A DNA stretch of 64,000 bases from NCBI RefSeq assembly GCF_014698755.1, contig NZ_JACJTO010000007.1, forward strand, positions 62,001 to 126,000, in the 5' to 3' direction. The position numbers were made by a program, and so were the translations under genes. Below the pieces are notes generated by a model. The model was not told where the DNA came from. It saw only the letters and a program-made list of their open reading frames with translations, and did not search any database. The stretch comes from Aphanizomenon flos-aquae FACHB-1287. GTDB lineage: Bacteria > Cyanobacteriota > Cyanobacteriia > Cyanobacteriales > Nostocaceae. Shown in pieces: positions 29,443 through 32,634 of the stretch. Positions within the stretch are counted from its first letter, which is position 1. Each line of letters begins with the position of its first letter.

Positions 29443-29545
29443 GCATTTAGTTTGTATAATTCTAGCGGGCAAGATGCCCGCATCACAAAGTTTAAGTAAA
29501 TTGTGGTTATCAAATTTAGCTGCGTAACGGCTTAAGTTTACCTAT
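29443..29545. repeat. 103-bp direct repeat, unit 1
   Basis: It runs from GCATTTAGTTTG to TTTACCTAT and contains the hairpin core GCGGGCAAGATGCCCGC. It differs from unit 2 at only about three positions. The core is shared with the element at 3899. Confidence 0.9.
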
Positions 29546-29557
29546 CTAAGTTTTACT

Positions 29558-29660
29558 GCATTTAGTTTGTATAATTCTAGCGGTCAAGATGCCCGCACCA
29601 CAAAGTTTAAGTAAATTGTGGTTATCAAATTTAGCTGGGTAACGGCTTAAGTTTACCTAT
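29558..29660. repeat. 103-bp direct repeat, unit 2
   Basis: Second copy of the unit at 29443, 12 bases after the first ends. One base change (GCGGTCAAG) breaks the symmetry of the hairpin core, suggesting that unit 1 is closer to the ancestral form. Confidence 0.9.
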
Positions 29661-29806: not shown

Positions 29807-31003
29807 ATGCAAACAAATTGGCAAATAGGTTCTTTATTTGGGATTCCTTTATTTTTAGACCCCTTATGGTTTGTAATTTTGGGGTTAACAACTCTCAATT
29901 TTGGTTTAGCTTACCAACAATGGGGGACTGTCGCGGGTTGGGGTGCTGGTTTAATTATGGCACTGCTGTTATTTGTTTCCGTACTGCTGCATGAGCTAGG
30001 ACATAGTTTGGTGGCACAATCCCAGGGAATTAAAGTTAATTCTATTACTTTATTTTTCTTTGGGGGAGTTGCGGCTATAGAAGAGGAATCAACAACTCCA
30101 GGTCTGGCTTTTCAAGTGGCCATCGCAGGTCCTGCGGTAAGTGTGATTCTATTTTTATTACTGCGTCTAATAGCGAGTGTAATTCCTGATAGTAACCTCT
30201 TGAATGAAATGACGGGAGATTTATCAAGAATTAACTTAGTTGTGGCTTTATTTAATTTAATTCCTGGTTTACCTTTGGATGGAGGCCAGGTTTTAAAAGC
30301 GGCTTTATGGAAAATTACGGGTGATCGCTTTCAAGCGGTACACTGGGCTGCTAGATCTGGGCAAATTTTAGGTTATACGGCGATCGTTTTGGGATTTGTG
30401 ATTGATTTTTTAACTGGGGAATTAATCACGGGTTTATGGATTGTTTTGATTGGTTGGTTTGCAATTCGGAATGCTAACAGTTATGACCGTGTAACTACAT
30501 TACAAGAAACTTTACTAAAGTTAGTAGCATCTGATGCCATGACGCGGAATTTTCGGGTAGTTGATGCTAATCAAACATTGCGAGAATTTGCTGATTCCTA
30601 TCTTTTGGAAACCACTACATCTCAAGTTTATTTTGCTGCTGCTGATGGTCGTTATCAGGGTTTAGTGGCGATTAATGATTTGCGGACAATCCAAAGAAGC
30701 GAATGGGAAAATCAAACTTTGCAAACAATTGTTCAGCCTCTGAATACAATTCCTACGGTTGTCGAATCTACTTCTTTTGCTGAGGTAATTAAGAAATTAG
30801 AAACTGCACAATTATCTCAAATTACCGTTCTTTCTCCTGCGGATGCTGTTGCTGGTGTTATTGATAGAGGGGATATTGTTCAAGCATTAGCACAAAATTT
30901 AAATTTGCCAATTCCCTCATCGGAAATCAAGCGTATTAAAGAAGAAGGTAGCTTTCCTCCTGGATTACAATTGGGGGTAATAGCAAAATCTCTAGAAAAA
31001 TAA
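29807..31003 (+). CDS. Site-2 protease family (M50) with C-terminal CBS pair
   Basis: A 398-residue polytopic membrane metalloprotease. The zinc motif is LHELGHSL (near residues 62-69), and the second motif NLIPGLPLDGGQV (near 149-161) supplies the third ligand. About five hydrophobic segments lie before residue 225. The C-terminal cytoplasmic half (about 240-375) resembles two CBS modules (SDAMTRNFRVVDANQTL...). Such proteins cleave membrane-bound regulators within the lipid bilayer. The CBS pair may sense adenylates. The substrate is unknown. Confidence 0.92.
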   Translation: MQTNWQIGSLFGIPLFLDPLWFVILGLTTLNFGLAYQQWGTVAGWGAGLIMALLLFVSVLLHELGHSLVAQSQGIKVNSITLFFFGGVAAIEEESTTPGLAFQVAIAGPAVSVILFLLLRLIASVIPDSNLLNEMTGDLSRINLVVALFNLIPGLPLDGGQVLKAALWKITGDRFQAVHWAARSGQILGYTAIVLGFVIDFLTGELITGLWIVLIGWFAIRNANSYDRVTTLQETLLKLVASDAMTRNFRVVDANQTLREFADSYLLETTTSQVYFAAADGRYQGLVAINDLRTIQRSEWENQTLQTIVQPLNTIPTVVESTSFAEVIKKLETAQLSQITVLSPADAVAGVIDRGDIVQALAQNLNLPIPSSEIKRIKEEGSFPPGLQLGVIAKSLEK

Positions 31004-31029
31004 AAGGCTCTTAGATACTTGTTATGAGA

Positions 31030-31056
31030 AGGGAACAGGGAACAGGGAACAGGGAA
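31030..31056. repeat. GGGAACA short tandem repeat
   Basis: Three to four copies of GGGAACA directly downstream of the protease gene, of the same family as at 14187. Confidence 0.8.
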
Positions 31057-31060
31057 AAAA

Positions 31061-31333
31061 TTAATTTTCTAGTTTTTTAATAAGACTAATAATCATTCTG
31101 CTTTCTTCTTTTAATACATTAAGAATCATTACTATGAGTCTACTGAGATTAGAAAAAACGGAAATCTGAATTGTTTTCTTGCTTGATATAATTCCCCACT
31201 CTTCTTTGACCTTTTGCACTACCTGTTTTAACGGTCTTGGTTCTTGTTTTACAAATTCTCTGATTTTTTCTTTTTGCTCTGTATTAAATTTTGATTTACA
31301 TCCTCTACCTGGTTTATTATACAATCCAATCAT
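31061..31333 (-). pseudogene. IS630-family transposase fragment
   Basis: A 90-codon frame starting GLYNKPGRGCKSKFNTEQKE and continuing with LKQVVQKVKEEWGI. This matches the linker/second HTH of IS630 transposases. After the SSKKTI segment the similarity is lost and the remainder is degenerate. Both the first HTH and the DDE catalytic domain are absent. It lies about 230 bases inside the presumed CAST end and may be cargo debris or a separate insertion relic. Confidence 0.7.
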
Positions 31334-31561
31334 ACTATTTGGCTGAAAGAGGATTGATTTCTCGAATAAATATCATTTTAATTAGAAATTAGAATTAATA
31401 TAAATACTCTTATATCTTAATATATTATGTTATTTATTTGTGTAATTAATTATCTCCAGGTACTTACCGCGTTTGATCTCAAACTGCTGTAAAATCCATC
31501 GTGTCGCTTATATCTCAGATATCACTGAGTTTTACGCTTCCTGGATACTCTTATAAAAAGA
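31334..31561. other. Interior of the CAST relic, no gene
   Basis: About 230 AT-rich bases between the IS630 fragment and the guide sequence. A GTGTCGC step and a local inverted repeat ATATCTCAGATAT (near 31510-31522) occur. CTCTT-ATAAA-AAGAG forms a small hairpin immediately before the repeat-like GGGTTGAAAG. No second transposon end (TGTACAGTGAC-like in opposite orientation) was found here, so the inner boundary of the relic is not defined. Confidence 0.4.
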
Positions 31562-31589
31562 GGGTTGAAAGAAAGTACATTGTTGACAT
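31562..31589 (+). ncRNA. Delocalised CAST guide: CRISPR repeat 3' end plus tRNA-targeting spacer
   Basis: GGGTTGAAAG (31562-31571) is the 3' end typical of type V-K CRISPR repeats, from recall of the Scytonema system. The following 18 bases (31572-31589) match the tRNA-Val gene at 31764-31747, on the tRNA strand, in 16 of 18 positions; the mismatches are at spacer positions 2 and 10. Identity stops after position 18, as reported for short homing spacers. The target is preceded by GTT, a valid GTN PAM for Cas12k. Only the 3' end of the repeat is recognisable. Confidence 0.8.
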
Positions 31590-31704
31590 ATCGCTTTGAT
31601 ATATCAATAAATGACATTAATTTTTCACTACCATTAAAACGACAACAATTAACCTAACGACACTAAATTGTCACCAATGACATATTATAACTAGTCACTA
31701 TACA
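31562..31704 (-). mobile_element. Solo left end of a type V-K CRISPR-associated (Tn7-like) transposon
   Basis: Read inward on the minus strand from 31704, the end is TGTATAGTGAC, close to the TGTACAGTGAC terminus of known V-K CASTs. Repeated TnsB-site-like motifs follow: TGACAT (31679), CGACACTAAATTGTCAC (31658-31674), CGACAAC (31640) and TGACATTAA (31612). The homing guide sits next inside. The terminus is exactly 60 bp downstream of the PAM in tRNA-Val, within the 60-66 bp window of Cas12k transposition, and in the expected left-end-proximal orientation. No cas12k, tnsB, tnsC or tniQ gene is in the window. The other end is not found. Confidence 0.78.
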
Positions 31705-31711
31705 AAAAGTA

Positions 31712-31785
31712 TGGACGGTATTGGACTCGAACCAACGACCCCATCGATGTCAACGATGTACTCTAACCACCTGAGCTAACCGTCC
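31712..31785 (-). tRNA. trnV-GAC: tRNA-Val (anticodon GAC)
   Basis: The 74-base gene folds into a full cloverleaf. Acceptor GGACGGT pairs with ACCGTCC, D-arm GCTC...GAGT, anticodon arm CATCG-TTGACAT-CGATG with anticodon GAC, T-arm GTTGG-TTCGAGT-CCAAT, discriminator A. CCA is not encoded. The gene is intact. Its anticodon arm is the target of the adjacent delocalised guide, with the PAM GTT at 31765-31767, and the transposon end begins 7 bases past its 3' end. Confidence 0.97.
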
Positions 31786-31854
31786 TTAATCCCATAGACT
31801 AATAACATATCACATAAAATATAATTTGTCAATCCCTAAAATCCAAATTTTATT

Positions 31855-32634
31855 CTACATATATCTAGTCAACTGTACCCGATAGCGATCCTTTTTTGTC
31901 ACCGCAATTTCCCCAACTTCCAACCGACCTTTTCCCCGAATAGCGATTAAATCCCCTGTTTTCAATTGAGAACTGGCTTGAGTGACTTCCTTCCAATTGA
32001 CACGCACATCATTGGAATCTATTAGATCTACCATTTTACTGCGGGACATCCCAAACCCAGCAGAAGCCACCGCATCTAACCGCAAAGAAGCTTCCACGGT
32101 TGTTAATTCTTTTTTCTTAGGTTCGCGGATTTTTAATTCGCTAATATCGATACGTTGAGTTCTCACTGGTACAGAGCGCACCTGTTTTAAACTCATCTCT
32201 AAAAATTCTCCCAATTCCGGGACAACAATCACCTGTGACCCTCTTTCCCCCAAGACAATCACATCTCCCGTTTTTTCCCGGACAATCCCCGTTCCCAACA
32301 TTGCGCCTAAAAAATCCCGGTGATTTGCTGTATCAAATAGGAAATTACCGGCAATTTCCAAAGCCATGATAGCAACTTGAGACTGATCTAATGGTAAATC
32401 AGCACGAGCGATCGCCAGTCGTTGTCTTTCCGCTTGTGGATATCCCCCCCAGGCTACCGAATGCACCTCCGTTAAGCGGCTAAATACCCTTTGAATTTCC
32501 GCCAACTCCGGCGGAGACAAAAAATCTGTAAATACGACTTCCCAGGTCTTTATAGCCTGATCTGCTTGATCAATCACACGGGCGACAGTATCGCGGTTTT
32601 CAACACCTTTTAAAAGTTCTTCTCTAGGTAGCAT
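31855..32634 (-). CDS. Photosystem II S4-domain protein (YlmH-like)
   Basis: A 259-residue protein of the cyanobacterial/plastid PS II S4 family. The N-terminal part resembles YlmH-like domains (MLPREELLKGVENRDTV, GGYPQAERQRLAIA). The C-terminal S4 RNA-binding domain covers about 180-250 (RLDAVASAGFGMSRSKMVDLI, VRVNWKEVTQ). The start is placed at 32634. The longer frame to 32697 adds 21 residues encoded almost wholly by a CAACGGA repeat (LSVV repeats) and is rejected. It probably binds RNA; the role in PSII or ribosomes is unproven. Confidence 0.9.
   Translation of the reverse strand: MLPREELLKGVENRDTVARVIDQADQAIKTWEVVFTDFLSPPELAEIQRVFSRLTEVHSVAWGGYPQAERQRLAIARADLPLDQSQVAIMALEIAGNFLFDTANHRDFLGAMLGTGIVREKTGDVIVLGERGSQVIVVPELGEFLEMSLKQVRSVPVRTQRIDISELKIREPKKKELTTVEASLRLDAVASAGFGMSRSKMVDLIDSNDVRVNWKEVTQASSQLKTGDLIAIRGKGRLEVGEIAVTKKDRYRVQLTRYM

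Follow-up and report, generated by a model that had tools for sequence, protein, structure and literature searches.

A probable stub of a type V-K CAST with its anchor guide beside tRNA-Val(GAC) in Aphanizomenon flos-aquae FACHB-1287

In the 64,000-nucleotide stretch of Aphanizomenon flos-aquae FACHB-1287 DNA analysed here (hereafter the window), a segment of ~ 148 bp at 31557-31704 on the + strand, whose left border is approximate, is very probably the stub of a type V-K CAST that once homed to tRNA-Val(GAC) and is now a functionless fossil. This copy is most likely the dead remnant of a known kind of element; V-K anchor guides in tRNA genes are already reported in the parts of PMC11406308, PMC11656645 and PMC9938897 that deal with them. 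By analogy with V-K CAST biology, the guide would once have been loaded by Cas12k together with a tracrRNA, and the loaded guide would have directed insertion by TnsB, TnsC and TniQ just past the 3' end of the tRNA gene. Repeats and genome rearrangement may later have removed the CAST body or separated it from this end, and guide and end would now be drifting without function. The first-pass annotation of the window had described a delocalised type V-K guide against tRNA-Val. This identification is upheld by the CAST end, the PAM, the spacing, the lineage and the co-variation of spacer and tRNA alleles presented below, and the picture is narrowed to a decayed stub, with no sign that the guide still acts.

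Guide, target and transposon end at tRNA-Val(GAC)

The guide begins at 31562-31571 (+ strand) with GGGTTGAAAG, a truncated CRISPR repeat (R*) identical to the 10 bases that end the full array repeats of cas12k-bearing CASTs. It is followed at 31572-31589 (+ strand) by an 18-nt spacer, AAAGTACATTGTTGACAT, of which 16 bases are identical to the tRNA-Val gene, identity ending after base 18. The protospacer, AGAGTACATCGTTGACAT, lies in the anticodon region of tRNA-Val(GAC) at 31747-31764 (- strand), as given by the alignment to the spacer and the tRNA call. The gene itself, called by ARAGORN, occupies 31712-31785 (- strand) with its 3' end toward the remnant. The three bases directly 5' of the target on the tRNA strand (31765-31767, - strand) are GTT, a GTN PAM. 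Both the 16-of-18 match to 31764-31747 behind a repeat end and the GTT PAM had been claimed in the first-pass annotation, and both proved exact when checked against the sequence. An Rfam search of 30900-31900 at E 1 returned the tRNA and nothing else.

The match was then compared with what chance would supply. GGGTTGAAAG has a single occurrence in the window when both strands are counted. When 31701-31800 was masked, only one 18-mer of the window (both strands) matched one of the 14 GTN-adjacent 18-mers in that interval with two mismatches or fewer, and it directly follows the sole GGGTTGAAAG; none of 200,000 shuffled spacers reached an equal match. On its own GGGTTGAAAG is a weak signal, since the whole genome holds 9 copies as compared to 18 of a reversed control. 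At seven of these nine sites the best GTN match within the 3 kb locus has 6-8 mismatches, the only outliers being the window with 2 and C85:1267, on another contig of the same genome, with none.

The tRNA-proximal CAST end is found at 31605-31704 (+ strand), with repeats GACAnTAATTTGTCAC and the terminus ...AGTCACTATACA. This stretch can be aligned to the corresponding, tRNA-proximal ends in other CASTs, its terminal repeats resemble those of other V-K CASTs, and it scores E 1.9e-21 with a sequence-only end model built from nine CAST ends, of which the window's is one. The terminus reads TATACA in the window as compared to TGTACA in most other ends. Homology of the tRNA flank begins exactly at 31705 in six same-genus loci, which places the terminus of the element at 31704. 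The bases AAAAG at 31705-31709 sit where a target-site duplication is expected and are a putative one, a second copy not being known. On the left, homology with the remnant in genome G029 begins at 31556, and copies of the repeat adjoining the guide stop near 31557-31559. A whole CAST has two ends and a target-site duplication; the window shows one end, the next match of the end model scoring E 0.68.

In the part of PMC9938897 that describes V-K anchor guides, these consist of a truncated repeat of ~ 12 nt and a spacer that is mostly 17 nt long; the PAM is GTN, the tRNA points toward the transposon, and the PAM-to-end distance is 46-82 nt with a single exception at 147. The window is alike in its truncated repeat ending in GGGTTGAAAG, in a spacer that matches the adjacent tRNA beside GTT, in the orientation of the tRNA toward the element and in the distance of 60 nt from the CAST end to the PAM. 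In contrast to the type V-K CAST described there, it showed neither cas12k nor an array, and neither tns genes nor a second end, and its spacer carries two mismatches. Hence the sequence supports reading 31562-31589 as a type V-K anchor guide.

The guide lineage in other genomes

Among 388 genomes of the order, a pattern search tolerating one mismatch detected the guide type in six, the window's included, while the reversed-control pattern gave none in the same 388. A scan of GTDB 220 with a looser pattern yielded 10 records, including Nostoc, Calothrix, Goleter and Amazonocrinis; one of them is genome G017 again, and both searches together give 15 records, 14 besides the window. A scan of genome contigs with the window's own allele (...GTACNNNGTTGACAT) gave no match, and this exact guide allele was met in the window and G029 alone.

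The target is in view in 13 of the 15 records (12 of the 14 besides the window) and is always tRNA-Val(GAC) with PAM GTT. The CAST end, or tail, is seen in all 13, the window included, and its distance to the PAM is 57-62 nt in the 12 relatives. In 11 of the 13 the spacer is identical to the local tRNA over 18/18 bases, with two mismatches in the window and three in G029. Three tRNA alleles are represented: AGAGCGCTACGTTGACAT and AGAGCACTACGTTGACAT are matched by their spacers without mismatch, and AGAGTACATCGTTGACAT is the allele facing the two mismatches of the window and the three of G029. The co-variation of the spacer with three tRNA alleles is the strongest evidence for its guide nature. 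In the two remaining records, G168 (L174) and Nostoc XA010 (L178), the sequence ends shortly past the guide, before any tRNA target comes into view; we read this as subsequent damage or as the end of a contig. A guide conserved without a transposon end, named in the first-pass annotation as counter-evidence, is thus encountered in these two partial cases, whereas every target-bearing record has its tail.

The presence of cas12k to the left of the guide was judged in 13 of the 15 records, L179 and L185 being left out with less than 1 kb on that side. A long match is present in four of them: L176 (residues 23-662), L180 (1-664), L178 (202-662) and L177 (from 428, at the locus edge). Four others (L183, L173, L174 and L030) hold remnants of 25 to 97 residues, and in five (L181, L182, L184, L175 and the window) cas12k is absent from the available sequence, which is 3 to 6 kb for three of them. 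The match is near full length in two carriers, Amazonocrinis nigriterrae CENA67 (L176) and Nostoc sp. KVJ20 (L180), both of which also show a CvkR match. These two CASTs share with the window the tRNA-Val(GAC) target, the spacer register and the type of end, and differ from it in the near-full-length cas12k match, the CvkR match and a spacer of 18/18. With two such carriers and stubs elsewhere, the lineage allows both the guide against tRNA alleles and the death of the element to be tracked.

The missing body and the rearranged left flank

At a cut-off of E 0.01 the window matched none of Cas12k, TnsB, a TnsC fragment, TniQ and CvkR. The genome was searched for cas12k, tnsB, tnsC and tniQ, as the first-pass annotation had proposed, and one CAST was detected, a broken one at tRNA-Thr(CGT). 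With the NCBIfam profile NF038191, used instead of Pfam RuvC_1, which gave no match and is unsuited as a Cas12k probe, one gene's worth of cas12k is split over the ends of two contigs, at C18:104-1393 and C85:110-715. The C85 piece has an in-frame TAA; the C18 piece runs into a multi-copy repeat that is also found in the window, and contig C85 begins with sequence that looks similar to this repeat by eye. The tnsB gene carries an in-frame stop (a frameshift was considered and rejected, as the gene lies in a single frame) and tnsC a frameshift; tniQ, a MerR-type regulator and cargo are also present in this CAST (L080 1-1526 and L081 1-9848), the cargo including DruA and HerA-like proteins. Mu-transpos_C has a single match in the genome. 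The anchor guide of this CAST, at C85:1267, matches tRNA-Thr(CGT) over 18/18 bases. Intact V-K machinery was not found in the 85-contig draft genome, where CAST parts may be missing or misjoined and where stops and frameshifts rest on the assembly and not on reads. The tRNA-Thr CAST (C18/C85) resembles the window copy in being of V-K type, in having an anchor guide and in its decay, and differs from it in its att site, its end sequence and in keeping most genes in broken form.

To the left of the guide the window holds a succession of repeated sequences. A dispersed non-coding repeat at 31490-31556 (+ strand), with copies in G011, G005, G004 and G009, adjoins the guide. It was considered as the right end of an IS200/IS605 element; however, beside four copies no ORF of more than 130 codons was recognised by eye as a transposase and the repeat folds no better than shuffles, for which reasons it is termed a dispersed repeat only. 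Next to it, 31465-31499 (+ strand) is the end of the multi-copy repeat, probably an insertion sequence, that also lies at the broken cas12k end on contig C18. A decayed copy of a repeated element follows at 31165-31467 (+ strand), with a second copy on contig C53. The 90-codon ORF at 31061-31333 (- strand), which shows HTH_32 similarity below the curated cut-off, may be IS630-like. The interval 31021-31057 is a GGGAACAGGGAACAGG repeat with at least ~ 100 similar copies among the matches listed in same-genus genomes.

A comparison of the locus in related strains, also suggested in the first-pass annotation, showed that the tRNA side is common to the six loci from 31705 onward. All 15 same-genus relatives have a match to the M50 peptidase gene at 29807-31003, at 84-88% identity, but on the transposon side of their tRNA-Val loci, where 0.9 to 19 kb were covered in each genome, no homology to it was found. 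Indeed, the M50 gene and tRNA-Val are at least 0.6 Mb apart in G005, G007, G009 and G011, where both are on one large contig (at 4.35 and 5.03 Mb in G007), and on separate contigs in the other eleven. Given that the M50 gene was not found at the tRNA-Val loci of relatives, the junction between it and the remnant in the window is regarded as rearranged.

In the same family, genome G016 carries beside tRNA-Val an element of ~ 7.7 kb (L044 4657-12321) with both CAST ends and a cas12k remnant of 91 residues, and without a GGGTTGAAAG guide. It has the look of a CAST that is decayed or non-autonomous, and its cargo is presumably of the long repeat-protein class. Two near-identical stretches of ~ 100 bp, 115 bp apart, lie ahead of the M50 gene at 29443-29660 of the window, and the G016 element is flanked by similar copies of them, ~ 4 kb beyond each of its ends.

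Orphan guides in the genus and the state of the stub

The end model was run on 16 genomes of the genus, and at least 35 places scored E 0.01 or better; 150 of ~ 1,400-1,850 candidates per genome were scored, and the genus counts are lower bounds. Loci were used for 30 of the 35 places, one site being listed twice, and five were left out, one each in G009, G008:C140 (near a cas12k fragment), G008:C115, G004:C22 and G011. From these 30, at least 23 distinct tails are correctly oriented toward a tRNA. Eleven of the 23 have a spacer with at most two mismatches in 17 beside a GTN PAM, and in the other 12 no such guide was found. A cas12k match lies within 1.5 kb in seven of the 11 guide-bearing tails, this genome's broken copy among them. 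The remaining four have none within 1.5 kb, and none in the 11 to 31 kb that were searched on this flank; they are the window, G013:C55 (tRNA-Leu), G007 (tRNA-Pro) and G008:C35 (tRNA-Pro). The first-pass annotation had held that the lack of Cas12k-CAST relatives in the genus would speak against its reading, and such relatives are in fact common, with Cas12k matches in 12 of 16 same-genus genomes, 11 of them above the curated cut-off.

The window tail shows signs of decay. Aligned with the tail in G009 it has 8 substitutions in 77 aligned bases and 4 gap columns, about the same rate as the 2 in 18 of the spacer, as would fit sequence drifting free of selection. The TATACA at its terminus is a further sign of drift. 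A scan of 31300-31800 for promoter-like matches gave none on the guide strand, which says little because the scan covers one consensus type and the three matches on the opposite strand are at the level of shuffles. As a counterpoint to the fossil reading, the guide is still recognisable, its R* is unchanged and the two mismatches may leave its use possible.

The orphan guide could still be active in trans, with the Cas12k and transposase of another CAST, resident or incoming, inserting beside tRNA-Val. This would agree with an R* that is the same as in the other guides found (the search pattern required it), with the recurrence of orphan guides in the genus and with G013, where full-length Cas12k is present on another contig. 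However, the sole CAST detected in this genome is broken, the stub has no second end in the window and hence no partner to move with, and three of the four orphan-guide genomes (G000, which is the window's own, G007 and G008) have split or fragmentary Cas12k only. We therefore consider activity in trans improbable. Still less probable is that the stub is kept for a role in the host, either in tRNA 3' end formation or termination or in marking the site as occupied. Although the guide-less tails show that ends persist beside tRNAs in 12 of the 23 tRNA-facing cases, the end model scores at tRNA-Val in at least 4 of 16 genus genomes, which we count as few, no terminator-like site was found in 31300-31800, and the tail drifts as measured against G009. 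Finally, integrases often leave duplicated tRNA fragments, but a copy of that att type, or a chance match, in place of a guide is so improbable as to be negligible, given that the copy lies in inverted orientation to the tRNA and adjoins a repeat end, that the locus has a PAM and, at the expected distance, a CAST end, and that co-variation of spacer and tRNA alleles was looked for in other genomes and found. A CAST stub that has lost its function therefore stays by far the preferred reading of 31557-31704.

A wider proposal is that V-K elements repeatedly pass into an orphan-guide state, having lost cas12k, tracrRNA and array but kept guide and end, and that a co-resident CAST can serve them in trans, so that they act as non-autonomous elements guided by RNA or hold guides for att sites in reserve. 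We hold this to be unlikely. Parts of the picture are already in print: CAST variants with a delocalized crRNA alone and no array are reported in the relevant part of PMC11656645, and degenerated cas12k genes near CAST regulators are counted in that of PMC9938897. What is new here is modest, namely a lineage in which the spacer follows the tRNA through three alleles, and a tally of orphan guides for a single genus; orphan guides as such are not claimed to be new. The scars of V-K homing at tRNA genes can be read, with spacer, PAM and end legible after the machinery is lost; if orphan guides did act in trans, the counting of CAST elements and the judgement of their reach would change.

Beside the other three orphan guides, truncated CvkR-like pieces were observed at L156 12297-12455, L157 1799-1950 and L158 11369-11676, in three same-genus genomes. 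The C-terminal piece starts at residue 52 in G013 (where the similarity to CvkR is 33% identity only), 96 in G007 and 116 in G008, and lies about 40, 20 and 70 nt from R* respectively. Since these breakpoints differ, it seems as if separate deletions removed cas12k, tracrRNA and array and yet spared guide and end.
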